NCBI GenBank assembly: GCA_026392155.1
Contig: JAPLCP010000150.1
Span: forward strand, 1-50,947
DNA length: 50,947 nt
Source: Armatimonadota bacterium
GTDB taxonomy: Bacteria > Armatimonadota > Armatimonadia > Armatimonadales > Armatimonadaceae
Reading direction: 5' to 3'
Under the pieces are notes generated by a model. The model saw only the letters and a program-made list of their open reading frames with translations. It ran no database searches and was not told the DNA's origin. Shown here piece after piece: positions 7,201-24,952 of the stretch (position 1 is the first letter of the stretch; every line of letters starts with the position of its first letter). The position numbers and the translations under genes were made by a program.

Positions 7201-7915
7201 ATGGGAATCGGCGCGAAACTACGTCAGGCAATCACCTCCAGTTTTATCGAAGTCCGCATGGATGATGCTGAGGCGCAGGCCGCTCCAGCACCCGTGCTTG
7301 TTCCGGAGCCCGTGCTTGTTCCGGAGCCCGTGCTTGTTCCGGAGCCCGTGCTACGCGGCACTGCGAACCGATGGTTCCCTCAATGATGACGTGGTCTATC
7401 GCGAGGCAATCTTGGCTCAGGTTCCGTTCACGGCAGAGCAGGCCATTGACGTGCTGGTAGAGCTACCTTCTGGGGTAACGTCACGCCGACGGTTCCAGGC
7501 GATGCAGGAAGCCATCTCGGTCGCCACCGATGATCTCTCTCATGCGGGGCACTTAGTCGTCAGTGATGCCGCGCAGAAGATGGTCTCTCTCAACTTGCAC
7601 CTCAACCGCAGCCGCGAGGAGCTGAAGAGCTTCCGCCGTAATGTCGCCGAGGAGATGGATCGGCTCCATGAGCAGCTAAACCGCCTCCGCATCTTAGTGG
7701 ACGAGACCAATGCCAACTACAACGCTCTCGATGAAGCAGGCCGAGAACGCGTGGATAACCTGACAGGAATTATTGCTTTCTTTGATGAGTTCCAGGCCTA
7801 CTTGCGCTCGGAAGAGAGTGTTAATGAGGGCAGTGCTGCCGAGCTTCCCGCTTACCTAAGAGACGATACGGCGCGAAAACTCCTGGGAATGCACCAGGAA
7901 AAAGACGCGGCCTAA
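7201..7915 (+). pseudogene. coiled-coil protein gene with an apparent frameshift
   Basis: The start at ATG 7201 (GGAAG upstream) reads MGIGAKLRQAITSSF and then a Pro/Val-rich run encoded by three perfect 18-bp repeats (7291-7344). That frame ends at a TGA near 7384. The +1 frame, from about 7352, continues as a convincing protein (AALRTDGSLNDD onward) with a long helical coiled-coil region (residues about 130-200) and stops at 7915. Removing one base near 7354 joins both parts into a 237-aa protein (PVL-AALRTDG). The cause could be a real mutation, slippage at the repeat, a sequencing error or programmed frameshifting. No family was recognised. It lies 9 nt downstream of the ParB-like gene. 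Confidence 0.6.
7291..7352 (+). repeat. 18-bp tandem repeat, three copies plus a partial one
   Basis: CCCGTGCTTGTTCCGGAG occurs at 7291, 7309 and 7327, with a partial fourth copy at 7345-7352. It encodes a PVLVPE repeat. The frame break of the host gene follows immediately. Confidence 0.9.
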
Positions 7916-7922
7916 GCTGTGG

Positions 7923-7928
7923 TATAGT
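7923..7928 (+). promoter_or_regulatory. -10 element of leaderless yciH-like gene
   Basis: TATAGT ends 6 nt before the GTG start at 7935, with no Shine-Dalgarno between. A transcript starting about 6-7 nt downstream would begin at or next to the start codon. Confidence 0.5.
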
Positions 7929-7934
7929 TTCCCT

Positions 7935-8270
7935 GTGGGACTTGTCTACTCCACCGAAAAAGGTCGTCTGTGCCCGGGGTGCAGCGAGTCGCCCTGCCAG
8001 TGTAAAAACGCCCCAACGCGCACGGTCGGTGATGGCTTTGTGCGGGTGGGCCGCGAGACCAAGGGCCGCAAAGGCGCAGGCGTGACCACTATTACGGGCC
8101 TCCCCCTCGACGACACGGCACTGATGGCGTTTTGTACCCTCCTGAAAAAACGCTGCGGCACCGGCGGCACGCTCAAAGACGGTGTGATCGAGATCCAAGG
8201 CGACCACCGCGATAAAGTCATCACCGAGCTCACCACGCAGGGCTACAAAGTCAAGCGCGTCGGCGGATAG
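7935..8270 (+). CDS. yciH: SUI1/eIF1-family translation factor (YciH-like)
   Basis: This is a 111-aa SUI1 domain protein. Bacterial YciH resembles eIF1 and is thought to influence start-site fidelity or initiation under stress. The C-terminal two thirds carry the family core: GAGVTTITGLPL, then LLKKRCGTGGTLKDGVIEIQG, then a final helix and strand ending QGYKVKRVGG. The N-terminus has a small Cys cluster (CPGCSESPCQC), as in many bacterial homologues. It starts with GTG behind a TATAGT hexamer at 6-nt spacing, so the message is probably leaderless, which is notable for a protein acting on initiation. It converges with the minus-strand operon ending at 8301. Confidence 0.9.
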   Translation: MGLVYSTEKGRLCPGCSESPCQCKNAPTRTVGDGFVRVGRETKGRKGAGVTTITGLPLDDTALMAFCTLLKKRCGTGGTLKDGVIEIQGDHRDKVITELTTQGYKVKRVGG

Positions 8271-8300
8271 TTTTTCTTTCCGATCAAGATCGTGCGGGGG

Positions 8301-9656
8301 TTAGGGGGCCAGTCGCGCGTCCGTGTCGCGGATGATGCTGCTGACGGCGGTTTTATTGAAGCCCTTGAAGCCCTCCCAGCGCTGAAGGATTTCGAGATGG
8401 CTGCCCAGTGCCCCGACGGTCGCGAATTTTTCGGCTTGCTCGCTCGTGAGCTGCCCGGCGGCCACGAGTGGCGTGAGGCGCTCTTGTGACACCTGCCAAG
8501 GCTCGCCGACCGTGAAGGCTTGCCAGAGCATTGGGAGGTCGGTGAAGGGAGCCATCACGGGAAAACCGGCGGCGTTGGCATCGTCTTTGACGCGCTGGCA
8601 GAGGAACTCGCACTCGATATGGTGCATCCCCGCGCTGGCGATAGACGAGCTGTGTAGGGCGCACCACAGGCCGATGGTTCCCAGAGTCGCTCGGGGAGCC
8701 AGCTCCACCGAGGCGAAGTCTAGGTCTAGCTCCTCGGGGGCGATGTCCACATCGGCGAAGATCACCACGCGGCTCTCAGGGTGCTCTAGAACCTGCGCCC
8801 CCCAGCCCGCCTCAGCCCCGGCGTAGAAGCGCTCGCGGCAGACAAAGCCCATCGCCACAAAGAGCCGGATTAGCGCCGGAAACGCCGCGCGGGAGCACCG
8901 ATACGTGTGGTGGTCGTGGTTGGCCCAGCCGATTCCAATCGCCTCTTGCCGGGCGTACTGCCAGCGTGCGGCAGCGTTGCGAGCGAGGTAGTAGGCACGC
9001 TCCGCGGCGAAGAACTCCTCCGTAGCGCGGCCCCGTCCCAGCATCTTGGCATGCTTCTCGAAAAGCTCCTGCGCGGCGGCAATGCTCACTGCTTCGTCAT
9101 CGGTGCGTGGGCGATGGGCAAAATCCGTCCGTGCGGCTTCGAGTCCCTCAGGGCGGGCTTGGGGTGCAAAGCCACGGTAGCCGATGCGCACGATAGGCAT
9201 GAGCTCGCCGTGGGGCAGCGTGAGATGGGCGCACTGGTAGCCCGAGTCGTCGTCGCCGTGGCAGGCTTCGATGTTGAGGTCGTTCTTCGCCGCAAATGCG
9301 GAGATATTTTCGACGCCTAGCGCTAAACACGGCGTCGTGCGCTTGGCTTTGATACGGAGCCGCGGGAGCCGTGCGCCCGGATGCTCCCAGACCTCATCGC
9401 CCTCGGGGAGCGTGGTCTTGACCAGCCCGAGCGCCTCCCATTTTTCCGTCAAGCCGTTAGTAGGGGGCAAGATCCAGTGGTCTACGAGCGCAAGAATATC
9501 CACGCCTGCCTCATCGGCAAAGCGCTGGACGAGCTGCGCGATGAGCGGGTTCTGGGTGGCGAAGTCGGCAAAAAGCTCCTGAAAATAAGCGGCTGCCTCC
9601 GGGCAGCGCGGCCACGGGCCTGCCGTGTTTTCTGTGTTTGTCGAGGACGTACTCAT
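8301..9656 (-). CDS. uncharacterised protein, possible VOC-like fold
   Basis: This 451-aa soluble protein has no signal peptide and I did not recognise a named family. The first half has a VDH motif near residue 59 and, further on, EACHGDDDSGYQ. The second half has a conspicuous NHDHHTYRCSR segment and an AGMHHIE segment, plausible metal-binding His/Glu sites, with intervening strand-rich stretches (RVVIFADVDI). Repeated His/Glu in two halves suggests a vicinal-oxygen-chelate-type dioxygenase or lyase, but this is inference. It is the last gene of the eight-gene minus-strand run, 21 nt after the DUF5916 gene. It also has its own TACACT hexamer 6 nt before the start, so it may be transcribed separately. 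Confidence 0.5.
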   Translation of the reverse strand: MSTSSTNTENTAGPWPRCPEAAAYFQELFADFATQNPLIAQLVQRFADEAGVDILALVDHWILPPTNGLTEKWEALGLVKTTLPEGDEVWEHPGARLPRLRIKAKRTTPCLALGVENISAFAAKNDLNIEACHGDDDSGYQCAHLTLPHGELMPIVRIGYRGFAPQARPEGLEAARTDFAHRPRTDDEAVSIAAAQELFEKHAKMLGRGRATEEFFAAERAYYLARNAAARWQYARQEAIGIGWANHDHHTYRCSRAAFPALIRLFVAMGFVCRERFYAGAEAGWGAQVLEHPESRVVIFADVDIAPEELDLDFASVELAPRATLGTIGLWCALHSSSIASAGMHHIECEFLCQRVKDDANAAGFPVMAPFTDLPMLWQAFTVGEPWQVSQERLTPLVAAGQLTSEQAEKFATVGALGSHLEILQRWEGFKGFNKTAVSSIIRDTDARLAP

Positions 9657-9662
9657 GGGTTT

Positions 9663-9668
9663 AGTGTA
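9663..9668 (-). promoter_or_regulatory. -10 element before the 9656 start
   Basis: On the minus strand TACACT ends 6 nt before ATG 9656, the same geometry as other leaderless genes in the window. It would give the last gene of the operon an independent transcript. Confidence 0.45.
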
Positions 9669-9677
9669 CCTAAACGA

Positions 9678-11714
9678 TCAGTAGGGCCGCACTAACTTCA
9701 CCGTTGTTTGGGTCCTGGTGTTGTTAGCGTTGGGATCGCCGAGAATCACGAAGATATCCGCGCCGTTGGCGCGGGAGCGCTGGGTGTAGGCGAGATAAAA
9801 ATTCGTCCCGTTGCGTGCCCCGACATTGGCGGCGTTGCCGCTGCCATTTTGTGAGAGAACTCGTGCGGAGAGTGTCCGAAGCGTGTCGATGCGAAACGTG
9901 CCCGTGGCGATTGCCTGGCGCGTGGTGGTCGTGCCGCGCTTTTGCTGGTTGTAGCTCGTGCTCACCGAGAGGGGCTTGCTGACGAGAAAGCCTTGACCAA
10001 AGCTGAGATCCGTTGTGGGAAGCCCACCCTGCCGACCACGTCCCACACGCAGGCCGCCGCCTTGGAAGAGCGTGCGCTGGTTCCAGCCAAACCCAACTCC
10101 ATTGGAGAAGTCTTCAAAGCGCTTGGTGGCGCTGTCCTCGCGGCGGCCCTGGCTGGAATCCAGCGAGAGGCTGTTGCCCTTGCGAGTCTGGACACTCGCC
10201 GTGCCTCCGACATTCTCATAGAAAAACGCGCCGCTGGTGAGGCGATCGGCTTGGCTATAATCCAGCTTAAAATCGTAGGAGAAGAGCGGGCCCTTATCGA
10301 ACTGGTTGCGCAAGCTGGAGCTTGCCGACCAGCCCTTGCGATCTAGGTTCTGGACAAGTCCCATCGTGCTGATAAAGTCCGACGAGAGCTGAGACTGAAT
10401 CAGCGTGTAGCTGGGCTTGCCGTTGGAAGAGCTGCTGTTGAGGTAAAGAACACTGTCATTACCCTTAGGCTGCGCCCCGAGCCAGGTCTGGGTGCGGCGC
10501 AGATAGGCAGTATTGCGACGGTCTTTGGCCATCCAGCCGTACGTCCCATGCGCCTCCGCGACCCGGTTGGCGACAATCCCGTAGATATTATCCGCCGTGG
10601 CTGAAACACCGACCTCGCTATAGAGTCCGAGGGCTTGCTTCACAGCAACCGCCATGTTATCCCGGTCGTACTTGGTCGAGCGTGCCTGCGAGGCCACGAG
10701 GCCCACGGACGTGGCTCCGTCGCGCCCGACGACTTTCATGCCGGTGTCGAACTGCTGGATGCGCTGGGAGTAGAAGAGCTCAGGCGCGGGAAGAAACTCA
10801 CTTCCCTCGGCAAAGAACGGGCGACGGTCTGCGACAAACTGTTCGTTGTAGGAAAAGTTAACACTGGCGACGTTTTGCTCAATGGTCTGGAAGTCCGGGT
10901 TGATCGCCATCAGGCCTGTGAGGGTTGTGGAGAACGGATACTTGATGTCCATCCCGACGCGCCCACTCTGGCCGTTGGGCTTGGCGGTGGCAAATGTGTA
11001 GGGCAGAAAGACGGGCTTAGGGGCGACATCAGGCATGGGCTGTGCGAGCTGAATATCCGGGGCGTTCTGCGCAAGTAGGGAGAGGACCTGTCCTTCAGGT
11101 GGAACGGCGGGCCAGATCACAAAGTTGCTCTCACGGGTCATGGCCCGGATCAGCTGCATCCCAAACACTTTTGACTTGGCCGGGTGGCGCATCAGGCCAA
11201 AGGGAATCGCCAGCTCGCAGACCCAGCCATCCGCGACCCGCTTGCTCACGCCCTTCCAGTCGCCCGCCCAGGTGATGTTGTCCGCCGTTCCCCCTTCGAG
11301 AGTGTGGTAGAGCGTCCCAATCGGGTTGATCGAGAACGCCGAGAGTCCGCGATGGAGATGCTGGCTGTCTATCAGCACGGTGATGTGGTCGTCGCCGTAG
11401 ACCGCCCCACTGCCGCGCTGGGTCTCACTCGCACGAATCTGCTCGGGCTGGGTGTCGTGGCAATAAAACGCCACATAGAGCGTCTTGCCATCGGTGGTCG
11501 CCCATGCCTCGGTTTTCTGGCTTACGGGCGTGCCGCTCCCAAAGCGCGCAAACTCCCCAGCCTTGAGCGCATCTTTCCAGCACGCATCGGAGAGATCACC
11601 ATCTATCTTGGGCGGTGTTTTTGTGGTGGGAAGCGTGAAGCTCTGGCGCTGTCTTGCCAACGCCTGTATGGGAAGGAGCAACAAAATCGCTGCGAGTAGT
11701 AACTTAAAATTCAT
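9678..11714 (-). CDS. CBM9-like plus DUF5916 outer-membrane barrel protein
   Basis: The protein is 678 aa with a clear signal peptide (LLLAAILLLLPIQALA). Residues about 30-200 form a carbohydrate-binding-module-9-like domain: the opening PPKIDGDLSDACWKDA and later YGDDHITVLID are typical. The remainder is a DUF5916-type beta-barrel with the characteristic stretch INPDFQTIEQN and FFAEGSEFL, and many amphipathic strands up to the C-terminal aromatic residues (KLVRPY). Such proteins are thought to sit in the outer membrane, and the ligand is unknown. Its start overlaps the stop of the acyltransferase gene by four bases (ATGA), so the two are translationally coupled. Confidence 0.85.
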   Translation of the reverse strand: MNFKLLLAAILLLLPIQALARQRQSFTLPTTKTPPKIDGDLSDACWKDALKAGEFARFGSGTPVSQKTEAWATTDGKTLYVAFYCHDTQPEQIRASETQRGSGAVYGDDHITVLIDSQHLHRGLSAFSINPIGTLYHTLEGGTADNITWAGDWKGVSKRVADGWVCELAIPFGLMRHPAKSKVFGMQLIRAMTRESNFVIWPAVPPEGQVLSLLAQNAPDIQLAQPMPDVAPKPVFLPYTFATAKPNGQSGRVGMDIKYPFSTTLTGLMAINPDFQTIEQNVASVNFSYNEQFVADRRPFFAEGSEFLPAPELFYSQRIQQFDTGMKVVGRDGATSVGLVASQARSTKYDRDNMAVAVKQALGLYSEVGVSATADNIYGIVANRVAEAHGTYGWMAKDRRNTAYLRRTQTWLGAQPKGNDSVLYLNSSSSNGKPSYTLIQSQLSSDFISTMGLVQNLDRKGWSASSSLRNQFDKGPLFSYDFKLDYSQADRLTSGAFFYENVGGTASVQTRKGNSLSLDSSQGRREDSATKRFEDFSNGVGFGWNQRTLFQGGGLRVGRGRQGGLPTTDLSFGQGFLVSKPLSVSTSYNQQKRGTTTTRQAIATGTFRIDTLRTLSARVLSQNGSGNAANVGARNGTNFYLAYTQRSRANGADIFVILGDPNANNTRTQTTVKLVRPY

Positions 11715-13186
11715 GTTGTGTTTTTTTGACGTCGGCCATTGAGGAGCGTCCCCAGCACGGTGTCGCGAACAAGAGTCTGGTAGATTGCCAAGAGGGCTCC
11801 TGTAGCCAGAGTAAAGACGACGAGAAATTTGAGGCCAGGGAGCAGAGGCCAGCTTCGGACCACACCCTGGAGCGCGATCACCAGCGGGATGTGGCTAAGA
11901 TAGAGCCAGTAAGAAGCATCGGAGAGGTAGCGCAGGGTCTTGTTCTCACGAGTGATGAGGTGTCCAAAGAGCCCCAGCAGCCCAAAGATCATGAGCCATG
12001 TGTAGAGCACCTGAATCGCTCCGGAGAAGGCGGGAGCCGCTCCCATGGTAATGAGTCCCAGAGGGAGAACGACCAACAATGCGACCGGGAGCTGCCAGCG
12101 CCAGCTCTTTCCACTCGTGGCCCCTTGCTCAAAGTACAGCACTCCAAAGAAAAAGAAGATGCCGTAGTAGAGCAAGAGGTGCGGCGGCGGGAGCCACCCC
12201 ACACTGGTATCGGGGCCAAAGCTTGAGCCTGCTGTTCCCATAAAGAACTGTGGGATAAGAGGCAGTGGCAGGAGCCAGAGAGGCCGCCACGATGCTCCTC
12301 CCTTGAGGCGTGCCCAGAGCGCAAAGCAGGGAAGTAGCCAGCAGAGAAACCACAAAAACCAGAGGTGGTCGAAGACGGGGGTGGTGAACCCGCTTGCGGT
12401 GATAAACGCGCCGTAGGCCGCACGCACGCTGAGCTGAGTACTGGGAAGGGCGGGCAGTAGTGCTTGGCAGCGCTCTCGGCCTTCGTCAATGGCGCTCTGC
12501 GGACGGGGAGGGAGGCGCAGGAGCCCGATGAGGGACTGCGTGGTTCTGGCATCGGCCTGCATAGACTCGGCAGGAGGCTGGCCCGCGCTATTCTTCCCCT
12601 GAGGGTTGGCTCCCTTGCTCAGCAAGAGCGCCACGAGCGTATCGTTGCCCAGAAACGCGGCCCCATGGAGTGGGGTGGAGCCATCGCCGTTTTTGGCATT
12701 GACATCGGCCCCTTTTTCGAGGAGGCGCTGCGCCATCGCCAGATCACCCTGCATCGCGGCCCAGCCCAGCAGAGTGACTCCAAACTCAGAGTCGCGGCCG
12801 TTGGGATCGGCTCCCTCCGAAAAAGTACGCGTGAGTGCGGGGCGCTTTACGGGCCGGGTTGCCTTCTCCGAGACCCAGTGCCCCAAGGGGAGGATCGTCA
12901 CGAGGCCTAAAAGGCAGGGCAAGAGAACACGCTTCAGGCGCTGCGTCACCATGGCACGCAGGCCACGCCCCCGCCAGAGCATGGCCGTGAAGAAGCCACT
13001 TACTAAAAAGAAGAGCTGCATCCGGAAGCCGTGCACGGCAGCGACAAAGATCCCGAAGCCGTCGCTTTGCTGGACATCTTGGACGGCCCACGGCGCCCCG
13101 GGCACAAACGACATCGCGGCGTGGAGTGCGAGCCCAAGAAGCATGGCAAAGGCCCGGAGGGCATCAAGGTCGTGTCGACGGTTCAT
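11711..13186 (-). CDS. acyltransferase-3/MdoC-like membrane protein with inserted ankyrin repeats
   Basis: The N-terminus (RRHDLDALRAFAMLLGLALHA) is the acyltransferase-3 signature with the conserved R/H/D pattern. The C-terminal half has the matching helices and the YWLYLSHIPLVI motif. These integral-membrane enzymes transfer acyl groups to extracytoplasmic glycans, as in MdoC/OpgC succinylation. Unusually, residues about 121-205, between early transmembrane segments, form two to three ankyrin repeats (GADVNAKNGDGSTPLHGAA is diagnostic). A linker of about 45 residues then leads to the remaining helices. At 491 aa it is longer than the family by roughly the size of the insertion. It lies within the eight-gene operon, 1 nt after the PQQ-propeller gene. 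Confidence 0.85.
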   Translation of the reverse strand: MNRRHDLDALRAFAMLLGLALHAAMSFVPGAPWAVQDVQQSDGFGIFVAAVHGFRMQLFFLVSGFFTAMLWRGRGLRAMVTQRLKRVLLPCLLGLVTILPLGHWVSEKATRPVKRPALTRTFSEGADPNGRDSEFGVTLLGWAAMQGDLAMAQRLLEKGADVNAKNGDGSTPLHGAAFLGNDTLVALLLSKGANPQGKNSAGQPPAESMQADARTTQSLIGLLRLPPRPQSAIDEGRERCQALLPALPSTQLSVRAAYGAFITASGFTTPVFDHLWFLWFLCWLLPCFALWARLKGGASWRPLWLLPLPLIPQFFMGTAGSSFGPDTSVGWLPPPHLLLYYGIFFFFGVLYFEQGATSGKSWRWQLPVALLVVLPLGLITMGAAPAFSGAIQVLYTWLMIFGLLGLFGHLITRENKTLRYLSDASYWLYLSHIPLVIALQGVVRSWPLLPGLKFLVVFTLATGALLAIYQTLVRDTVLGTLLNGRRQKNTT

Positions 13187-13187
13187 T

Positions 13188-14462
13188 TTAATTGTTTTTT
13201 ACGCAGTAGAGCGTGTTAGCCGTGCGGATCAGCAGGCGCTCCCCGGCCAGGGCAGGCGTGGCCATGCACATGTCATCGTCGGTGAGGCGGTTGGCCTGGA
13301 GGAGCTCGAACTTGTCACCCGCTTTAAGAACATAGCAGATCCCATCCTCACTTAGGCAATAGATCTTGCCATTGGCGGCCCACGGCGACGCGGTAAACCC
13401 GGAGCCAATGGGCAGGCGCTCCCGGTCATAGAGCTGCTTGCCCGTTTTAGCCTCAAAAGCACTGAAGAGTCCCCGATCATAGAGCACGTAGATCCGGCCC
13501 TCATAAAACAGCGGCGAGGGGTTGTACGGCCCGGCGGTTGGGTTCGACCACGCGATTGCCGTCGCACTTCCCGTAATATCGCCGCTGGCTCCGGGGCGGA
13601 TGGCGTAGAGTGGGCGTAGCTGATCGCCAACATAGCCCGAGCTGACAAAGAGCAGGCCCTCGCCGGTGGTTGGGGTGGGAATGGTGATACTGGACATCCC
13701 TTTAAGAGACCAGAGCAGCTTGCCATCTTGGGGATCGTAGCTCCGCACGGCGCGGGTGCCGGGGACTACCAGCTCAGTGCGCCCTCCGCTCTGCCAGGCA
13801 AATGGCGTCGCCCAGTTGCTTTTCTCGTCGCGCTCCACGTGCCAGAGGGGCTTGCCGGTCTTCGCGTCGAAGGCCAGCAGCTCCGCCTTTTCATCGTTGT
13901 CGTTGAGCAGAAAGAGCTTTCCCTGGTGCAGAACCGGCGATGCCGCGTAGCCCCAGCCAAAGCGCGTCTTTCGTGGCTCTAGCTTCTTCGACCACAGCTC
14001 TTTCCCAGACTTGGTATCGAGAGTAAACAGTCCCAGCCCCCCAAAGAGCGCATAGACCCGCTCACCGTCGGTGACCGGCGTCTCAGCACCGTAGCTGTTC
14101 TTAAGGTGCACGGTCGTGGTCGGCGGGCCATGAAACACCGTCTTCTGCCAGAGCATCTTGCCCGTCGTGAGACTCAAACAGAGCACATTAAACGAGTGCT
14201 CATCTTTGGGCAGCTCCAGCCGCTCGCCGCCAAAGTAGAGACCTTTTTTCGGCTTCTCGCCCTCGCCGGGCCGGACGACGGCAGTCACAAATATCTTATC
14301 GCCCCAGACAATCGGCGACGACCAGCTCTTTCCGGTGAGTGCGGTGCGCCAAGCGATATTCTCGGTCGCCGACCAGCGGGTGGGAAGCTTGCTGCTCGCG
14401 CTGATTCCTGCGGCGTTGGGGCCACGAAACTGTGGCCAGTGGGGTGTGTTTTGAAGAGGCAT
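13188..14462 (-). CDS. PQQ-like beta-propeller repeat protein
   Basis: A 424-aa BamB-like propeller. It opens WPQFRGPNAAGIS, the usual start of the planctomycete/armatimonad PQQ-propeller proteins. Repeated blade motifs follow (TGKMLWQKTVF, SGKELWSKKLE, TGKPLWHVERD, DGKLLWSLKG), with a regular spacing of about 45-60 residues. No signal peptide is visible, and the start cannot move upstream without running into the SGNH hydrolase gene, which stops 1 nt before this start. The protein may therefore be cytoplasmic or exported by another route. The family gives scaffolding or quinoprotein roles; no PQQ dehydrogenase catalytic residues were identified. Confidence 0.85.
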   Translation of the reverse strand: MPLQNTPHWPQFRGPNAAGISASSKLPTRWSATENIAWRTALTGKSWSSPIVWGDKIFVTAVVRPGEGEKPKKGLYFGGERLELPKDEHSFNVLCLSLTTGKMLWQKTVFHGPPTTTVHLKNSYGAETPVTDGERVYALFGGLGLFTLDTKSGKELWSKKLEPRKTRFGWGYAASPVLHQGKLFLLNDNDEKAELLAFDAKTGKPLWHVERDEKSNWATPFAWQSGGRTELVVPGTRAVRSYDPQDGKLLWSLKGMSSITIPTPTTGEGLLFVSSGYVGDQLRPLYAIRPGASGDITGSATAIAWSNPTAGPYNPSPLFYEGRIYVLYDRGLFSAFEAKTGKQLYDRERLPIGSGFTASPWAANGKIYCLSEDGICYVLKAGDKFELLQANRLTDDDMCMATPALAGERLLIRTANTLYCVKNN

Positions 14463-15011
14463 CTAGAAAATCCATTCTGCCAGCAAGGGCTGGGCATACT
14501 CTGAAAGCGCCGCGTAGGCATCGTCGGTGAGGTGCAGGCCATCGTCGATAAAGTAGTGCCCAGCAGGCGCACTGCCGGGAAAGAAGACTGTGTTACTCTC
14601 GACGTAGAGATCGCAGGGGAGCAAGCCCTGCGCAATCTGCGCATTGATTTGATCGATCTGCTCCCACTTGCCGAGCTTCTGGGGCGCTTTGATGATCCCA
14701 AAGTAGGCAAGCTTGGCGGCAGGCGCGAGCGCTTGTAGTGTCGTGCGGCAGGCAAGCACATTGGCGACAATCGCCTCGTCGCTCACTTCCGCGTTGAGGT
14801 CGTTGCTCCCGCAGTAGTACAGCACAAAGTCGGGGGATTCCTCGGTGAGCACAGTGGCAAGGTGCTCTGCCCAGAACGCGGTGACTGTCCCACCAATAGC
14901 GCGATTGGCCACGCGGCAGCCCGGCACGGCAGCTTGGACACAGCTCCACTGTTCAAAGATCGAGCTCCCGAGGATGAGAACCGTCGGTTTAAATCGAGGG
15001 GTGTCTTTCAC
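14463..15011 (-). CDS. SGNH/GDSL hydrolase
   Basis: The 182-aa protein has all four SGNH blocks: GSSIF with the nucleophile Ser near residue 16, a Gly in AIGG, Asn in CGSND, and the Asp/His pair in DGLHLTDDAY near the C-terminus. This family hydrolyses acyl or acetyl esters on lipids, glycans or arylesters. There is no signal peptide. It lies 3 nt downstream of the dihaem gene and directly abuts the PQQ-propeller gene, so it is part of the operon. A second ester hydrolase (16121-16900) and an acyltransferase in the same operon suggest turnover of an acylated polymer; that link is inference. Confidence 0.88.
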   Translation of the reverse strand: MKDTPRFKPTVLILGSSIFEQWSCVQAAVPGCRVANRAIGGTVTAFWAEHLATVLTEESPDFVLYYCGSNDLNAEVSDEAIVANVLACRTTLQALAPAAKLAYFGIIKAPQKLGKWEQIDQINAQIAQGLLPCDLYVESNTVFFPGSAPAGHYFIDDGLHLTDDAYAALSEYAQPLLAEWIF

Positions 15012-15014
15012 GAG

Positions 15015-16103
15015 CTACTTGCCACTTGGTTTCGGGCGGTTGAAGAGTGCCTTGTTGGGATAGTCTTCTCCTACTGTTTGGCTTGGCTTGCCTTGTGCAG
15101 GAGGAATGATCCAGCTTGCTCCCGGCACGCTCGCCGGTCCCTTGTTCCAAGCCTCCAAGAGCTGATCAAGGTCTTTGGCCATACTACCAGGGTTCTGAGG
15201 GGGCATGTGGCTGTTGGGTTTCCAGCCATTTTCCATAAACATGGCCATCGTACTCATGCCAACGCGATGGCAAGTGAGACACTTATTGTCCTTGATGTGA
15301 ATCGTGCGCATGTCCCAGTTTTGGCCACCGATCACATAGTAGGGAGATTTCTGGTTGAGGATAGGCACGACGTTTTTTGTGGTGCCTGGTATCTTGGCCG
15401 CATTGATGAAGGAATTCGTGATAAAGGGGTCGGCTTGATGGCACTGGACGCACTGAGGGCGTGTCGGCTCGGGGACACGGTACGCTCTATTGAAGCCGTC
15501 CGGATCGTCAATCCAAGGCATGACACCGCGCATGCGAAGCGTCTTCTGATCAAGCGTAACCCACGGCTGGATCTGATCGCAGCTCTCAAAAAACGCCGTC
15601 GCCCCCGTCTTTTTGTTGTAGCCAATCATCTGAACTGATCCAAGAACCGTCTCCGGGTCGCGAGTTGAGTTACGGCTGAAGCTGATCCAGACGACATCGG
15701 GGAGAGGCATGCCCGTGGCGGTACGCCCCTCGTACTGTTGGAGGGTGGAGCCAGAGACCGTGTCCTTGCCCAGCATACTGGGATTGTCGCAGTTTTGGTG
15801 GAGGTTACCGTAGGAGCGAACCCCTTTGACGTACAGAGGAATCTCGACAGACTGGCTAAGGTCTATCTTCGGAGGAACTCCCAAGTCGGGTTCGACCAGC
15901 TTGGCGTACTCGAAAGCGGTCTTGGGAAAGTTCCACCCACGCGGATCAAGCAAGCCCTTCTGGATTAACAATTTCTCGACGAAAGCCTTCTTTTCGGCTT
16001 CTGTCATTGGGCGAGATTGCCCTGTGGCGCGAGTCGGGACGAAGGGCAAGAGGATTGCGATGAGTGTAGAAATCATCCCGACGTGACGGGCAACTAAGTT
16101 CAC
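15015..16103 (-). CDS. secreted dihaem c-type cytochrome-like protein
   Basis: Two haem c motifs are present, CVQCH and CLTCH, in the C-terminal half; a conserved HMPPQNP may supply a Met ligand. The N-terminal hydrophobic segment (MISTLIAILLPFVPT) is a signal peptide, so the protein should mature in the periplasm. The frame is open back to a TTG at 16124, overlapping the esterase stop. I prefer GTG 16103, which has GGAG seven bases upstream and gives a basic N-region before the hydrophobic core; ATG 16076 is a further alternative. The family has no assigned function I recall. It is the third gene of the operon, next to the propeller/dihaem/ankyrin fusion, suggesting a shared redox chain. Confidence 0.78.
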   Translation of the reverse strand: MNLVARHVGMISTLIAILLPFVPTRATGQSRPMTEAEKKAFVEKLLIQKGLLDPRGWNFPKTAFEYAKLVEPDLGVPPKIDLSQSVEIPLYVKGVRSYGNLHQNCDNPSMLGKDTVSGSTLQQYEGRTATGMPLPDVVWISFSRNSTRDPETVLGSVQMIGYNKKTGATAFFESCDQIQPWVTLDQKTLRMRGVMPWIDDPDGFNRAYRVPEPTRPQCVQCHQADPFITNSFINAAKIPGTTKNVVPILNQKSPYYVIGGQNWDMRTIHIKDNKCLTCHRVGMSTMAMFMENGWKPNSHMPPQNPGSMAKDLDQLLEAWNKGPASVPGASWIIPPAQGKPSQTVGEDYPNKALFNRPKPSGK

Positions 16104-16120
16104 ATTAAAACTCCATTCTG

Positions 16121-16900
16121 TCAATTTGCTGTATTGTGCTTCTCGAAGAACCCAAGGATCTCCTCGGCGAGACTACGGTTCGGGTTGTCGAGGTGCGTGG
16201 GCCAGTCGTGGCCGCCACCGTCGATGGTGTAGAGAACGAACTCGGTCGCATCGCGCTTTGTTCCCCAGCGCGTGCGGGTGAGCTTGCCACTGGTTTTTTC
16301 CTCACGCTCGGTCAGGCTCAAAGACTTCACCCAGTGCGCGACCACTGCCTCCGTGCCGTAGTAAGGCCCCCAGCCATCACGGTTTTGCAGGTCGCCGTCC
16401 CAGAGCGTGACGTTATCTTTGGTGCCATGAACCTCCAGGATCGGGATGCGGTTCTTGGCCGTAAGAGTCTTGTCCCAGCCCACCATCATGCACCCGGCAA
16501 TCGGCGCGATGGCACGGATCAGTGGGTTTTTCTGGCGGGCGAGATAGTAGCTGAAGTCGGCCCCGTTGGACATTCCGGTGGAGAATACCCGCTTGGGGTC
16601 GAGCGTGTACTGTTTCACTAAGTGCGCGATAAGCTGCTGCGCAAATTTTACATCGTTGATCTTCGGGTCTTGGAACTGGTACTCCACTTGGAAGTTGCGC
16701 TTGCCTTTCGCATCCGGGAGGCCATCGAGATAGGCAACGACAAATCTGTGGGAATCCAGAATCTTGGAGAAGCCCGCCCAGCTTCGCATGTCCTCCGCAC
16801 TACCGCCAAAGCCATGGCAGACTAAAACCAGCCCTTGGGGGGTCTTAGGCACATCGAGCACATACGAACGCTCGCGGCCATCGACAGTTATTTTTGGCAT
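16121..16900 (-). CDS. PHB-depolymerase/feruloyl-esterase-like alpha/beta hydrolase
   Basis: The 259-aa alpha/beta hydrolase matches the LpqC/poly-hydroxybutyrate depolymerase family. It has an oxyanion segment VLVCHGFGGSAEDM, nucleophile Ser in TGMSNGADFS (near residue 115), Asp in HGTKD and His in GGGHDWP. These enzymes cleave esters such as PHB oligomers or feruloyl or acetyl groups. Homologues are commonly secreted, but no signal peptide is visible here. The start is 1 nt after the stop of the 1015-aa fusion gene (16901), so the two are co-translated from one message. The likely substrate is unknown. Confidence 0.85.
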   Translation of the reverse strand: MPKITVDGRERSYVLDVPKTPQGLVLVCHGFGGSAEDMRSWAGFSKILDSHRFVVAYLDGLPDAKGKRNFQVEYQFQDPKINDVKFAQQLIAHLVKQYTLDPKRVFSTGMSNGADFSYYLARQKNPLIRAIAPIAGCMMVGWDKTLTAKNRIPILEVHGTKDNVTLWDGDLQNRDGWGPYYGTEAVVAHWVKSLSLTEREEKTSGKLTRTRWGTKRDATEFVLYTIDGGGHDWPTHLDNPNRSLAEEILGFFEKHNTAN

Positions 16901-19900
16901 CTACTTTCCTTGGAGCCTAGTCACAATTTTCGGGCGCTCTTGTTCAAGATACTTCGGATCGAGCGTGACACCTGCTGATGCTCCCACTCCGGCATAAAAG
17001 TCGGCGAGCCCCTTGCTCCACGCCCCTGAGACAGTCGCTGCCGCCGTCTCACCGCGTGGGTTCTTGCGGTTAAGCTCAGCCCCATTTTTCAGGAGCAGGT
17101 CTACCAGCTCGGTGCGGCAGAAGAACGCGGCGAGATGGAGCGGCGTATTACCGTCGTCGTTGGTCACATTGGGGCTTGCTCCGTGTGCGAGCAAGTTCTT
17201 GGCAAGCTCCGTATCACCGTAGACCATGGCTTCAAAAAGAAGATCTTTTGCGGCCTTGGCATCGTCGGCGACATGGAAGATAAAGTCATTGCTGAAGAGC
17301 CCACCCGGGTTCTGGAGCTGGAGAAAGTGCATGCCTGCGGGGGGAAGCGTAGCCAGCGCCACCGTGACCGTCTCCCCATCGATTTTTACCGTGCCTGTAA
17401 TACGCCGACCATCCACGATGATACTTGCGTTGCTCATGAGGTGCCGACCACTGAGCTTCATCGGAAGGCTGCCGGGATAGAGAAGCGGAAAGACCTCGTG
17501 ACCGCGCTGGTTCTGGAGGGGGCCGTAGGTCCAGAGTGCGGGCTGCGGGTGGTCGAAGTCCACGTTGGGACCGAGCTGCGCGGTGAGCGTTCCGATAAAG
17601 CGCCCCTCGGCGGCAGCCTTGATGAGCTCTGCGCGGGAGATACCGGAGTAGGTCTTGCCATCGAAGTGGAGCGCAAGGGGTTTCTTTTGGAGCAGCCCCT
17701 CGCCTTGGAGCACCGTGGCAGACTCTCGTGCGGACTGCTCTAGGGCCTCTAGGAGCGCGGTGGTCTCGGGGAGCTTGGCGGTAGCTGGGCTGAGCGTGAC
17801 CTGGCGGGCAAACGCGCCCGAGAAGCCCGTGCTGCCTTCGAGCACCATGCTCCAGATGGGGTCGAAGCGTGGGCGACCTCCCCAGGACATGCGCCAGACC
17901 TCGCGCTCGGGGGTGCCCTGCTCGGCGATCGTGCGGAAGAAGTCGAAGCCGATGAGATTCAAGCGGCCTTGCGGCAGGATGAGCCAGCGGTCGTAGGCAC
18001 CGCGCCAGGTGGGGGCGTCCATGCCCGTGCCTGGCGTGTTGGTGCTTACCAGAAATGGCATGCGATGACAGTCCCCACAGACGTTTGGTTTGGACTTACT
18101 GGGGTCGTTGTCGCCCTCGACATGAAAGAGCGCAAAGCCGCGCTGCGCCGTTTTCGAGAGCGTGTTGGTATAGGTGCGCTGCGGGGCAGGGGGGTAAGGC
18201 ACACTCAGCAGAAACACCGCCATGTCGTCACGCTCCGCCTTGGTGAGCCGGCCGAGCTTGCCTTCGTCGTTCTTGGCACTATCGCCCATGAGCTTCATGG
18301 TCGAGGCGAGGCCACTGTCGATCAGCTGGCGTGGGCTACTCAGCGGGTCTTTTGGATTGCTGTTAGGCGCGACACTGGCAAAGACATGGGCGGAGTTGTT
18401 GCCGCCATACGGATCGCCGGGGATGCCATCCCAGTGGAAGGGCGCGGTGTCGCGCAGGCCACGAATGGGCATGGTCGAGCGGGGCATGATCTGGTTGCCG
18501 CCGGTGACAATCGGCGTGTCCAGTACCCAGAGAAGCTGGTCCGTGTGGCCATCGGGGTGGCAGCTTGCACAGGAGAATGTCCCCGTGGACGAGGCTTTTG
18601 CGGTGGTGAAGGCGATCCGGCCACGCTTCACGGCGGGGTGGGTCGGGTCATCGAGCGGGATCGTGGTGAGTGTCTTGGGCGCGGCGGGGTTGGTCACCTC
18701 CACCACCGAGACCGTGTTGGCAGCGGCGTTGAGCACCCAGGCACGCGAGAGCTTGCCCGGCTCCAGCGCGATCCCCTGCGGCACCGCTCCTACATCGGCT
18801 CGCCCCAGAACCGCGCCGGTCTTGGCATCCACCGTAAAGAGCTTGTCCGAACCCGCCGCGGAAGCGACCAGCGTGGAGTCGTCGTCGCTGACTTGGAGGG
18901 CGAAAGGCGTGGCAAGCGCTTGGTCCGGGGTGGGCTGATTGGGGAGCGCGGGCTCCAAATCAAAAAACGTAGGAGTAGCGGAGGGTGCGACGCACGTAAT
19001 GCGATTCAAAAACGGGCGGTTCTCCAGCTCTTTCAGACCATGTTTTTTCGTCCCTGAGCGTCCATTCATGTCGTTGCGGGCATCGGTCTGGGCGATAAAA
19101 ACGCGGCCCTTGGAGTCTACGGTCAGGCCATAGAGCAGGGTCCCAAGGGTGCTCACCGTCTCCCGCAGCGTGTCCGTCTTGGTATCGAAGATATAGAGAT
19201 CGCGGTCTGGCACTTTTGGGTGCTTGACAATATCCACGACATGGCCCACGGAGAGCACGTTGTTGTTGAAGATCGAGTGCGCGTAGGCATCGAAGGTCAC
19301 GAGCTTGTTGTCAAAGGGCTTGGTTCCCCCGGAGAGCTGGGTCTGGTTGCCGGACTCAAAGGGGAGCACATAGAGCCTATCGCCTTTGACGACAATCGCG
19401 CGTGGGTCTTGGGCAGTGATTGCCAGATGCTTGGTGAGCTGGCGCGCTCTCACATCCACCACGGCGATTTGATTGGCCGACGATAGCGCGACATAGGCTT
19501 TCTCGTTGCTGGCAAAGGCGATTCCCACGGGCTCATCGAAGCGCGTTGCCTTGGTCGCGGGGTCAATGTCCTGGATCGTGGCGAGCACCTGTAAGTACGT
19601 CGGGCTCTTGGGATCGGTGTCCACCACGCTCACCGAGTCCGAGAGATGGTTGGCGACCCAGACCTCTTTGCCATCGGGCCGAACCGCCACACTAACCGGC
19701 TCCACCCCCACCACGACACGCCTGACCATCCTGCGGCTCTTGGCATCGATGATGTCCAGAGTTCCCGCTGGTGTGTTGGCCACAAACACGCGCTGATCCC
19801 TCACCGCAATCGGCGAGGCTTGTGGGCTCATAAACGCCGGATGCCCAGTGGCTTTTGTCGCTTGCACCGCCCGGCTTGCGGGCCAGATCGCGGAGGCAAT

Positions 19901-19948
19901 CAGCGCGAGGGTGCTACAAACCACCAAGAGACGCAGAGAAAACTTCAT
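16901..19948 (-). CDS. beta-propeller/dihaem cytochrome/ankyrin fusion protein
   Basis: The 1015-aa protein has a signal peptide (RLLVVCSTLALIASAIW) and several domains in order. Residues about 40-450 form a YncE-like seven-bladed propeller (repeats such as VEPVSVAVRPDGKEVWVAN). A cytochrome-c-peroxidase-like dihaem region follows, with CASCH near 460 and CGDCH near 623. Residues about 820-895 look like a TIG/IPT-type sandwich (MHFLQLQNPGGLFSNDF). Two to three ankyrin repeats lie at about 900-980 (SPNVTNDDGNTPLHLAA). Propeller plus dihaem arrangements occur in MauG-like and surface-oxidase families; the ankyrin tail on an exported cytochrome is unusual. It is the first gene of the operon, with AGGAAGG before the ATG. 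Confidence 0.88.
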   Translation of the reverse strand: MKFSLRLLVVCSTLALIASAIWPASRAVQATKATGHPAFMSPQASPIAVRDQRVFVANTPAGTLDIIDAKSRRMVRRVVVGVEPVSVAVRPDGKEVWVANHLSDSVSVVDTDPKSPTYLQVLATIQDIDPATKATRFDEPVGIAFASNEKAYVALSSANQIAVVDVRARQLTKHLAITAQDPRAIVVKGDRLYVLPFESGNQTQLSGGTKPFDNKLVTFDAYAHSIFNNNVLSVGHVVDIVKHPKVPDRDLYIFDTKTDTLRETVSTLGTLLYGLTVDSKGRVFIAQTDARNDMNGRSGTKKHGLKELENRPFLNRITCVAPSATPTFFDLEPALPNQPTPDQALATPFALQVSDDDSTLVASAAGSDKLFTVDAKTGAVLGRADVGAVPQGIALEPGKLSRAWVLNAAANTVSVVEVTNPAAPKTLTTIPLDDPTHPAVKRGRIAFTTAKASSTGTFSCASCHPDGHTDQLLWVLDTPIVTGGNQIMPRSTMPIRGLRDTAPFHWDGIPGDPYGGNNSAHVFASVAPNSNPKDPLSSPRQLIDSGLASTMKLMGDSAKNDEGKLGRLTKAERDDMAVFLLSVPYPPAPQRTYTNTLSKTAQRGFALFHVEGDNDPSKSKPNVCGDCHRMPFLVSTNTPGTGMDAPTWRGAYDRWLILPQGRLNLIGFDFFRTIAEQGTPEREVWRMSWGGRPRFDPIWSMVLEGSTGFSGAFARQVTLSPATAKLPETTALLEALEQSARESATVLQGEGLLQKKPLALHFDGKTYSGISRAELIKAAAEGRFIGTLTAQLGPNVDFDHPQPALWTYGPLQNQRGHEVFPLLYPGSLPMKLSGRHLMSNASIIVDGRRITGTVKIDGETVTVALATLPPAGMHFLQLQNPGGLFSNDFIFHVADDAKAAKDLLFEAMVYGDTELAKNLLAHGASPNVTNDDGNTPLHLAAFFCRTELVDLLLKNGAELNRKNPRGETAAATVSGAWSKGLADFYAGVGASAGVTLDPKYLEQERPKIVTRLQGK

Positions 19949-19983
19949 CGTAGGAAACCTTCCTGTCCATTTGAACTATTTTT

Positions 19984-20027
19984 TGGCCAAGTGGCCAGAT
20001 TTTAACACCGCAACCTAAAATTGTCAA
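19984..20027 (-). promoter_or_regulatory. promoter and operator-like motif of the eight-gene operon
   Basis: On the minus strand TTGACA (20027-20022), a 17-nt spacer and TAAAAT (20004-19999) make a near-consensus sigma-70 promoter. At about +1 to +14 lies TGGCCA-CT-TGGCCA (19997-19984), two self-complementary hexamers, plausibly a repressor site. The start codon follows about 35 nt later, after an AGGAAGG ribosome-binding site. Confidence 0.75.
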
Positions 20028-20060
20028 GCCGTGCTAGTGCGACACTCTAAGCAGGACTTC

Positions 20061-20081
20061 TTGACCGGTTTGGGTTAAAAT
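20061..20081 (+). promoter_or_regulatory. possible madL promoter
   Basis: TAAAAT at 20076-20081 lies 13 nt before ATG 20095. TTGACC at 20061-20066 is too close to act as its -35. The promoter is weakly supported, and the region lies back to back with the strong minus-strand promoter. Confidence 0.3.
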
Positions 20082-20094
20082 GCCCCATAAGCTT

Positions 20095-20475
20095 ATGATG
20101 ATCTACGGGACTGCCCTGCTTGCTCTCTGCCACCTCTTAGGGGTCTTTCTGGGCGATCTGCTTGGGAAAGTGCTTGGGGTCAAGGCCAACGTGGGGGGGG
20201 TAGGTATTGCAATGCTGCTGCTGATCTTCATGCGACTCATCCTCCACAAGCGTGGCTGGCTCAGTGTAAAGTCTGAGGCGGGGATCCACTACTGGGGCGC
20301 TCTCTACATCCCCGTGGTGGTCGCGATGGCGATGCAGCAGAATGTTGTGGCGGCGCTCCGTGGTGGCCCAATGGCCTTGCTCGTGGCGGTGCTGACCGTG
20401 CTGGTGTGTGGTGGCTTTGTCGCGCTCCTCAACCGCACGGAGCCCAAGATTGCCGCGACTGAGGAGGCAGCTTAG
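20095..20475 (+). CDS. madL: malonate transporter subunit MadL
   Basis: A hydrophobic protein of about 126 aa with four predicted transmembrane helices. The N-terminal sequence MIYGTALLALCHLLGVF, followed by GDLLGKVLGVKANVGGVG, matches MadL of the two-component malonate/proton symporter. MadL and MadM work together. The frame also allows ATG 20080, but that codon overlaps a TAAAAT hexamer and MadL homologues begin near M(I)IYG, so ATG 20095 (or 20098) is preferred. The stop is 2 nt before madM. Confidence 0.9.
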   Translation: MMIYGTALLALCHLLGVFLGDLLGKVLGVKANVGGVGIAMLLLIFMRLILHKRGWLSVKSEAGIHYWGALYIPVVVAMAMQQNVVAALRGGPMALLVAVLTVLVCGGFVALLNRTEPKIAATEEAA

Positions 20476-20477
20476 CC

Positions 20478-21245
20478 ATGCAGAGCCTTCTTCAGAAAGC
20501 CGCTGAGCAAAACGGGCTGATTGTCGCTTTTGCCTTGGTCGGGCTGATTGCTTGGCTCTCGGAGGCCCTCTCGCGGCGGCTGACTCTGGGCCGCGTGCAG
20601 GGCTCGGCGATTGCGATTCTGATTGGGCTAGCGCTGGCCTATCTCGGGGGAAGGCTGAGCGGAGGCACGAAGGGGCTGGCGGATCTCGTGCTCTTTAGTG
20701 GCATTGGCCTGATGGGGGGGACGATGCTTCGAGACTTTGCCATTGTTGCCACCGCCTGTGAGGTGCAGGTGAGTGAGGCAAAGCGTGCGGGCATGATCGG
20801 GGCCGTCGCGCTGCTTCTGGGCACGATCCTGCCATTTATTGTCGGGGTAAGCGTGGCATGCGCCTTTGGCTACACGGATGCGGTCAGTTTAACGACTATT
20901 GGAGCGGGGGCGATTACCTATATCGTGGGGCCTGTCACGGGCGCGGCGATTGGGGCGAGCTCGGAAGTGATGGCGCTGAGCATCGCCACGGGAGTGATCA
21001 AGGCGATTCTGGTCATGGTCGCCACGCCCGTCGCCGCCGGTTTGCTAGGCCTTAAGACCCCGCGCTCCGCCATGGTCTTTGGCGGGCTCGCGGGCACGGT
21101 GAGCGGTGTCTCCGCGGGGCTGGCCGCCACGGATCGCCGCCTCGTGCCCTATGGTGCTCTGGTCGCGACCTTTCACACGGGTCTGGGCTGTCTCATGGGG
21201 CCCTCGGTGCTCTACCTCGCGGTAAAATTCCTGGTGGGGCACTGA
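20478..21245 (+). CDS. madM: malonate transporter subunit MadM
   Basis: The 255-aa polytopic membrane protein is rich in Gly/Ala with about eight hydrophobic segments. Conserved parts include the GLMGGTMLRDFAI loop, TIGAGAITYIVGPVTGAAIGA and AGTVSGVSAGLAATD, as in MadM, the larger subunit of the malonate symporter. The GGAGG in the end of madL precedes the ATG. It lies between madL and a malonyl-CoA synthetase gene, a combination that gives uptake and activation of malonate. Confidence rests on sequence and context together. Confidence 0.92.
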   Translation: MQSLLQKAAEQNGLIVAFALVGLIAWLSEALSRRLTLGRVQGSAIAILIGLALAYLGGRLSGGTKGLADLVLFSGIGLMGGTMLRDFAIVATACEVQVSEAKRAGMIGAVALLLGTILPFIVGVSVACAFGYTDAVSLTTIGAGAITYIVGPVTGAAIGASSEVMALSIATGVIKAILVMVATPVAAGLLGLKTPRSAMVFGGLAGTVSGVSAGLAATDRRLVPYGALVATFHTGLGCLMGPSVLYLAVKFLVGH

Positions 21246-21253
21246 CCAAACCG

Positions 21254-22753: not shown

Positions 22754-23356
22754 GGTTGCCCGCTCAAAGAGTGTAACCAGCTCGTTGGCATAGCTGTCCG
22801 TATCGAAGCCCTCGGTGGAGGCGATCTTTCCTGCTGCCAGATCAATGGCATTGCGAACCACCAGCGCCATCACACTGGGGGAGAACTCGCGAAACTCCCC
22901 GACTTCTTGTCCCCAGCGGAAGAAGTTCTCAAGGTCACAAAGCGATGCCTGGTGGGTGGCTGCCATCAGGGTCGGCAGAGGGCGTGCACTGGCGAGAATC
23001 TCCAGCAGAGCCACCAAGTGCTGGCGGCGTAGCTGCATAAACGCGAGGTTGGAGCGGATAATGGCTTCAAGTTTCTTGCGAGGCGTCGTCTCGGCGTCGA
23101 TCTGTGGCCCCATGAACGTGCCAAATGCCTCAAAGATCGCCGCAGCCGTCTGCTCGATCAGCTCGTCTTTGCTCTTAAAATAATAGGAGATCACGCCCTT
23201 GCTCACCCCCGCCCGCTTGGCGATCTGTGCCAGCGATGCCTGGCCGTAGCCAAGGGTCGCGATGGTCTCAATCGTGCAGGCGATGAGCTGCGTGCGCCGC
23301 GCCTTCTCGATAAAAGACAGCTCTTCGGGAGCGCCAGGTTTATTTTCTGACCGCAT
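22745..23356 (-). CDS. TetR/AcrR family regulator, likely malonate-linked
   Basis: The 203-aa regulator has an N-terminal helix-turn-helix (IATLGYGQASLAQIAKRAGV followed by SKGVISYYFKSKDEL), typical of the BetI-like branch of TetR repressors, and a C-terminal ligand domain. It converges on matB. It starts with ATG 23356 behind TAAACT at 6-nt spacing, and an inverted repeat (GTTC, 8 nt, GAAC) covers the -10 and the start, suggesting autorepression. Control of madLM-matB is plausible from position, but no copy of the repeat was noticed upstream of madL. Confidence 0.85.
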   Translation of the reverse strand: MRSENKPGAPEELSFIEKARRTQLIACTIETIATLGYGQASLAQIAKRAGVSKGVISYYFKSKDELIEQTAAAIFEAFGTFMGPQIDAETTPRKKLEAIIRSNLAFMQLRRQHLVALLEILASARPLPTLMAATHQASLCDLENFFRWGQEVGEFREFSPSVMALVVRNAIDLAAGKIASTEGFDTDSYANELVTLFERATSA

Positions 23357-24951: not shown

Positions 24952-24952
24952 C

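Follow-up and report, generated by a model that had tools for sequence, protein, structure and literature searches.

Do the closely packed genes around an exported haem protein and an acyltransferase, both carrying ankyrin repeats, in an Armatimonadota genome form one system, and what might this system do? The locus lies on contig JAPLCP010000150.1 (assembly GCA_026392155.1), of which positions 1 to 50,947 were analysed and are called the window here, and comprises eight co-directional open reading frames (ORFs, from the ORF list) on the minus strand from 19948 to 8301 that we number in transcription order from gene 1 (19948) to gene 8 (8301). A sequence-only reading of the window had described them as an eight-gene operon working as one system under one promoter. 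The layout is as described there, with intergenic gaps of 0, -4, 3, 0, 1, -4 and 21 nt and a sigma-70-type promoter (TTGACA-17-TAAAAT with a TG preceding the -10 box; 19999-20027, minus strand) that matches 11 of 12 consensus positions, can be aligned to the promoters found before gene-1 homologues in three other genomes and ranks first among the four promoter-like sites of 7900-20500 (2.7 in shuffled sequence). The number of genes did not stand, and only seven belong to the unit (see below). These seven probably work as one system, and the idea of a single promoter serving it is likely correct, because pairs of these genes are found together again in distant genomes and because, in two genomes where gene 1 is not linked to an operon of an esterase, gene 6 and gene 7, a TetR-type operator connects both. 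As a tentative best explanation, we suggest that genes 1 to 7 form one TetR-repressed, inducible operon whose products would serve mainly the envelope in redox chemistry, acyl transfer and glycan handling, together with de-esterification in the cytosol.

The end of the unit is marked by comparison with G013, the only other genome of the genus in the comparison set and hereafter the sister genome. Gene 8 (90%) sits there at the same site as in the window and genes 1 to 7 are not beside it; its flanks are an efflux operon with one extra gene (Gfo/Idh-like by eye) on one side and, on the other, genes that also flank gene 8 in the window. DNA similarity between both genomes resumes at window position 9670, inside the 21-nt gap ahead of gene 8 (9657-9677), so that gene 8 retains its own leader and is a neighbour. 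Judged from this boundary, which rules out gene 8 as a member, the unit is the seven genes from 19948 to 9678 and gene 8 is an ancestral neighbour outside it. A foreign origin of the unit was considered on the basis of composition and dropped, since GC content at third codon positions is alike in genes 1 to 7 (0.66-0.75), gene 8 (0.77) and the flanks.

Directly after the -10 box lies an operator-like palindrome, TGGCCAAGTGGCCA (19984-19997), identified by a pattern scan and in the upstream regions of relatives. It is a perfect 14-bp palindrome and the only place in the window where TGGCCANNTGGCCA matches exactly, and its general pattern, TGRCC-N4-GGYCA, occurs twice in the window versus 0.33 times expected; the second match, TGGCCAGGTGGTCA at 43805-43818, is located away from the unit and apparently within an ORF. 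Across the 2.4 Mb scanned, the pattern has 29 matches including overlapping loci, which amount to 22 distinct contexts. Four of the seven gene-1 upstream regions inspected contain it, and a promoter followed directly by the pattern stands ahead of gene 1 in the window, in locus L032 and in genomes G100 and G124. In G100, TGACCACTCGGTCA is also found around 20 nt before an operon encoding a beta-lactamase-like protein, an alpha/beta-hydrolase, gene 6 and gene 7, and around 65 nt after a TetR gene; G124 has the same palindrome at the place that matches this site, and the order of TetR, beta-lactamase-like protein and alpha/beta-hydrolase preceding gene 6 is seen in both genomes (families tested for G100 only). 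Genes 1, 6 and 7 therefore look co-regulated even where they are unlinked, and we interpret the operator common to both transcription units as the mark of a predicted TetR regulon to which gene 1 as well as genes 6-7 belong, linked or not.

The candidate binder of the operator in the window is the TetR-family regulator encoded at 22745-23356 (minus strand), which shares 38% identity over 183 amino acids with the TetR of G100 and 42% over 99 amino acids with the partial TetR beside the L032 site. As in known TetR operator/repressor pairs, a 14-bp palindrome covers the start site and the regulator gene adjoins it in L032, G100 and G124; the window differs in that its regulator gene is remote and its binder is a candidate. 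The palindrome may resemble the RutR box; a literature search on RutR with TTGACCA found nothing.

The second line of evidence is the recurrence of gene pairs. A scan of 84,980 species genomes for gene-1 relatives gave 165 stretches, of which the best 80 were retained; these are mostly from Planctomycetota and Verrucomicrobiota. On the same strand, a gene 5-like propeller directly follows gene 1 in 11 of 61 loci and comes second downstream in 5 of 50, compared to none in 199 gene slots at positions +3 to +8, and in L021 genes 1 and 5 are fused into one ORF of 1579 amino acids. A 2113-amino-acid ORF in L039 was considered as a second fusion of this kind and excluded from the count as a long-branch row. 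Other links involve gene 2, which follows the C-terminal end of one gene-1 copy after 19 nt (L065), gene 3, which forms the front of a larger protein whose gene lies immediately upstream of gene 1 (L084) or is flanked by two gene 5-like genes (L244), and gene 6, which overlaps the start of gene 1 (L048 and L249) or precedes a gene 5-like gene (L248). Among 49 genomes covering 50 of the 80 loci, 28 have gene 6 relatives and four have gene 3 relatives (56-64%). Gene 6 is located within 10 kb of gene 1 in 7 of the 49 genomes, around five of them independent, versus a chance expectation of 0.18 in 28 genomes; the latter presupposes that each genome has a single gene 1, an assumption that does not hold for G159 at least. 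In genomes of the same family, gene 6 is followed by gene 7 in G100 (L149) and G093 (match positions), and in G093 a GH81 gene comes next.

In samples of 151 genomes from the phylum, gene 1 is present in 4 genomes (own included; E up to 1e-20), gene 3 in 2 (1e-5), gene 6 in 7 (1e-20), gene 2 in 27 (1e-10), gene 4 in 16 (1e-10) and gene 7 in 88 (1e-20), with gene 8 in 16 (1e-5); the search for gene 5 was restricted to the two genomes of the genus. The sister genome carries genes 4, 5 and 7 as a trio at another place (74%, 91% and 84% amino acid identity), with no gene 6 between genes 5 and 7 and no remnant of it there (best E 1.0). The DNA identity of this trio between both genomes (82-84%) compares to 72-85% for flank segments, and the gene flanking the trio in the sister genome has no match in the window genome. 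In a plasmid collection, we found three weak gene-3 matches and no gene-1 match covering 80%.

Gene 1 (16901-19948, minus strand) encodes an exported protein composed of a YncE-type propeller, a CCP/MauG-like dihaem domain and C-terminal ankyrin repeats (around 17042-17245), as assigned with the Pfam and NCBIfam libraries used for all domain calls and an alignment of homologues. Both CxxCH motifs (18557-18571 and 18065-18079) are present in all 83 homologues, one row having an X at the first His, and 237 alignment positions including W506 are at least 97% conserved. Pfam CCP_MauG scores 21.0 in gene 1 versus a gathering score of 25.6, and 8 of 11 family members match it at E up to 1e-3. The nearest solved structures of the haem domain are hydrazine synthase gamma (5c2v_C, E 1.2e-4) and, second, the CCP 4aao (4.4e-4), and in a profile search hydrazine synthase gamma alone remains (5c2v_C, E 1.3e-5). 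According to the available text of PMC12758564, fused beta-gamma hydrazine synthase homologues are found in diverse phyla, and CCP, MauG and non-anammox hydrazine synthase homologues have a Trp in place of gamma-His144. The 5c2v_C residue aligned to W506 of gene 1 is a His, which we take from that text to be gamma-His144. Because gene 1 has a Trp and not a His there, just like these homologues, sequence comparison indicates that it is a branch of the broad hydrazine synthase beta-gamma kin and itself not a hydrazine synthase. Like the fused beta-gamma proteins, it is a single exported chain in which a CCP/MauG-like dihaem domain comes after a propeller, but it differs from hydrazine synthase by the Trp, an extra C-terminal part, the ankyrin repeats and scores far below the NCBIfam cut-offs. 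Likewise, it resembles di-haem CCP, MauG and MbnH in its two CxxCH motifs and a Trp at the expected place, but stays below the CCP_MauG gathering score and is fused to a propeller and ankyrin repeats.

In a tree of the 83 homologues, gene 1 of the window falls into a set of eight together with two Armatimonadota rows (support 100). The strict TPLHxA motif is absent from 31 of the 83, many of which have variant ankyrin repeats and some of which are cut at contig ends; in the homologues of L048, L029 and L085, a different sequence stands in place of the C-terminal ankyrin part. Pfam and NCBIfam provide no named function for this large and strongly conserved family of exported propeller-dihaem proteins, which is kin to hydrazine synthase gamma and CCP/MauG, the available text of PMC12758564 does not contain the word ankyrin, and literature searches joining ankyrin, Armatimonadota and cytochrome, or ankyrin, Planctomycetes, cytochrome c and beta-propeller, gave nothing and nothing relevant, respectively. 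We further note a 715-amino-acid NIPSNAP-domain protein encoded immediately upstream of a gene-1 homologue (L071:7275-9422) that has relatives in L070 and L084, the latter copy being fused to a gene-3-like part.

Gene 6 (11711-13186, minus strand) is an AT3 acyltransferase of the OpgC/MdoC-like type (PF01757, 105 bits versus a cut-off of 31) with ankyrin repeats (around 12593-12823) in the loop between transmembrane helices (TMH) 3 and 4. All 18 homologues scanned match both Acyl_transf_3 and Ank_2 (E up to 1e-3), have the R/K-X10-H motif in TMH1 (R-X10-H in gene 6 itself) and RXXR at TMH3, and space TMH3 and TMH4 by 164 to 222 residues. These are the AT3 motifs R-X10-H and RXXR described in PMC7448272 and PMC9833829, whose available text also places the TMH3-4 loop in the periplasm and reports correlated changes between this loop and the SGNH partner domain. 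A simple hydropathy topology puts the ankyrin repeats of gene 6 in the periplasm as well, because the loop ahead of TMH3 contains six basic residues but not one acidic residue. Gene 6 is thus like other AT3 acyltransferases in score and motifs but different in having an ankyrin insert in the TMH3-4 loop and no fused SGNH domain, and a text search of the open-licence literature found no description of an AT3-ankyrin protein. Some AT3 systems are known to depend on partner domains, and ankyrin repeats placed in the loop that faces the partner would be a novel solution to this need. The ankyrin repeats of genes 1 and 6 had been considered to reside in two unusual hosts, but both host architectures are widespread. 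In Planctomycetota, ankyrin also recurs in a likely regulator whose gene comes after that of an ECF sigma factor, in the vicinity of homologues of gene 1 or gene 6 (L029:6945-8291 and L249:5073-6404).

The domain content of the remaining genes largely agrees with the sequence-only reading, with corrections in detail. Gene 2 (16121-16900, minus strand), PHB-depolymerase-like in the sequence-only reading, is an alpha/beta-hydrolase esterase with GMSNG and GGH motifs by motif, profile and structure search; it scores 114.8 bits with NF050058 (cut-off 150), and its nearest solved relatives are feruloyl esterases (9j07, E 1.3e-12). Gene 3 (15015-16124, minus strand) is an exported dihaem protein of an unnamed family with two CxxCH motifs by eye, for which a start at ATG 16076 is more likely than at TTG 16124 considering its signal peptide (judged by eye, like all signal peptides here). 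It has no family in Pfam or NCBIfam; relaxing the Pfam search to E up to 1 yielded generic haem-motif matches only, a PDB search at E 0.001 yielded nothing, and the predicted model is poor (predicted local distance difference test, pLDDT, of 59). Homology between the dihaem proteins of genes 1 and 3 was rejected, as they share nothing beyond a CxxCH motif. Gene 4 (14463-15011, minus strand) is an SGNH hydrolase with GSS, GSND and DGLH blocks. Gene 5 (13188-14462, minus strand) is by family a BamB/PQQ-type beta-propeller whose binding of pyrroloquinoline quinone (PQQ) is putative. Genes 2, 4, 5 and 8 have no signal peptide; for gene 5 this is true of window and sister genome, while many relatives elsewhere appear to have one. 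The proposal that the ester hydrolases act in the envelope is therefore not borne out for genes 2 and 4. Gene 7 (9678-11714, minus strand) is an exported CBM9-like/DUF5916 protein and presumed outer-membrane barrel. Its DUF5916 match (PF19313, 44.6 versus a cut-off of 22.6) covers 86 residues at profile positions 8-97 of 572, and the CBM9 match is marginally below its cut-off (22.6 versus 23.4); DUF5916 was not found by name in a text search of the open-licence literature. A second paralogue of gene 7, around 60% identical, is common to both genomes of the genus (L208:7343-9403 on G000:C215 and L209:7551-9611 on G013:C1).

How could these parts work together? In our tentative explanation, a TetR-family repressor, probably the product of 22745-23356, would bind TGGCCAAGTGGCCA over the transcription start until a ligand releases it and genes 1 to 7 are expressed, presumably as one transcript. 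In the periplasm, gene 1 would perform a peroxidase- or MauG-like redox step on a substrate that belongs to the envelope or is incoming, with gene 3 as its dihaem electron partner and a propeller of the gene 5 type as docking partner. Gene 6 would take an acyl group from acyl-CoA in the cytosol and hand it to an acceptor in the periplasm, and the ankyrin repeats on gene 1 and in the TMH3-4 loop of gene 6 would act as periplasmic docking modules. At the outer membrane, gene 7 may bind or pass a glycan-like substrate; genes 2 and 4, placed inside the cell because they lack a visible signal peptide, would strip ester groups in the cytosol after uptake. A known case of a periplasmic ankyrin protein aiding a haem enzyme is AnkB of Pseudomonas, which is needed for full activity of the catalase KatB according to the available text of PMC3091734. 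The operator would offer a handle on this system, given one regulator and one gene set with which to approach inducer, substrate and interaction.

Several observations weigh against this explanation. The full gene order occurs in no other genome examined, so that the conservation beyond close strains on which the sequence-only reading had made its case depend is found for sub-blocks and not for the cluster as a whole. Genes 1, 2, 3 and 6 have no match in the sister genome at the thresholds used, and among the 19 genomes of the order the haem part of gene 1 is present in three and gene 3 in the window genome only. No operator match was found ahead of gene 1 in L014, L016 and L065, in the fetched region of the sister genome, where genes 4, 5 and 7 sit elsewhere, or in the two pieces fetched of G041, a genome that has genes 2 and 6 and no gene-1 match. 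The TetR gene of the window is 2.7 kb away from the operator, beyond a malonate module, and a scan of the window revealed no matching operator site of its own. Docking between ankyrin repeats is weakened by the gene-1 homologue of L048, which adjoins gene 6 and has no ankyrin. Finally, sulfatases, DUF1501, DUF1549/PSCyt, FecR and ECF sigma genes and an ankyrin protein encoded after the sigma gene are further neighbours of gene 1. Its role may be broader because in Planctomycetota and Verrucomicrobiota it is surrounded by genes for sulfatases and DUF1501/DUF1549 proteins, in some cases together with FecR/ECF regulators.

These neighbourhoods would also suit a less probable alternative, namely that a TetR controls a set of genes for the breakdown of an esterified glycan or an aromatic ester. 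Gene 7 would then be the importer, genes 1 and 3 would oxidise the substrate in the periplasm and genes 2 and 4 would remove its esters in the cytosol, gene 6 being a passenger or shielding the cell's own glycans. Besides the sulfatases and planctomycete cytochrome/DUF1501 pairs near gene-1 relatives, the GH81 gene after gene 7 in G093, the GH32 gene upstream of the window's TetR gene and the likeness of gene 2 to feruloyl esterases are consistent with it. However, the seven genes include no glycoside hydrolase, lyase or transporter, and gene 6 keeps all AT3 motifs and adjoins gene 7 in relatives of the same family. Improbable is a detoxification or stress regulon in which TetR would sense a noxious small molecule, esterases and acyltransferase would modify this molecule or the envelope, and the dihaem protein would remove peroxide. 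The TetR-like operator, EmrAB/TolC-like genes nearby, the CCP-like haem domain with its invariant W506 and the precedent of AnkB and KatB (PMC3091734, available text) point this way, but the efflux genes lie on the side of gene 8, in the part of the locus common to the sister genome, and gene 1 is found in catabolic-looking neighbourhoods in other phyla. Similarly improbable is a loose assembly of independently useful genes joined by rearrangement under one promoter without a joint pathway. The separate 4-5-7 trio of the sister genome, diverged about as much as the conserved flanks, and the lack of the full order in any other genome examined would fit it. Against it stand the gene pairs that are found repeatedly across several genomes and phyla, and the common operator that connects gene 1 with genes 6-7 even without linkage.

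Returning to the inducible envelope operon, a more specific version would have the ankyrin insert of gene 6 recruit the propeller-dihaem protein into a periplasmic complex and couple acyl transfer across the membrane to oxidation of the same glycan acceptor. The AT3 loop that holds the insert, and that in AT3-SGNH proteins probably touches the partner domain, would be the docking site for gene 1, yet we consider this version a long shot. If true, Planctomycetota, Verrucomicrobiota and the group of the window would possess a type of AT3 system that is not known to have been reported, an ankyrin-coupled dihaem oxidase-acyltransferase.

Among the neighbours of the unit, gene 8 (8301-9656, minus strand) had been described as an unknown protein and indeed has no sequence match in Pfam or NCBIfam, but its predicted fold resembles DUF1338 enzymes (VOC fold). 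The model (pLDDT 79) aligns with 3lho (Z 11.3, root-mean-square deviation (rmsd) 3.5, 146 aligned), 3iuz (Z 11.2, rmsd 3.7, 153 aligned) and 6w1k (Z 10.0, rmsd 3.7, 148 aligned); the best six fold rows include these and 6w1g, 2rjb and 6w1h, and the three named first exceed HPPD-type rows, which are near Z 7. We take 3lho and 3iuz to be of the DUF1338 type. Gene 8 would thus share its predicted fold with the DUF1338 family (2-oxoadipate dioxygenase/decarboxylase, YdcJ) and differ from it in the missing Pfam or NCBIfam match, the likeness being one of fold alone.

On the other side of the unit, the GH32 gene (23377-25035) is located directly upstream of the TetR gene; neither was found at the matching site of the sister genome, where one different gene stands. 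Divergent from the operon and separated from it by a gap of 131 nt lies the malonate module (MadL, MadM and an AMP-binding ligase; 20080-22753), which may also be affected by the operator because the latter sits in this shared gap.

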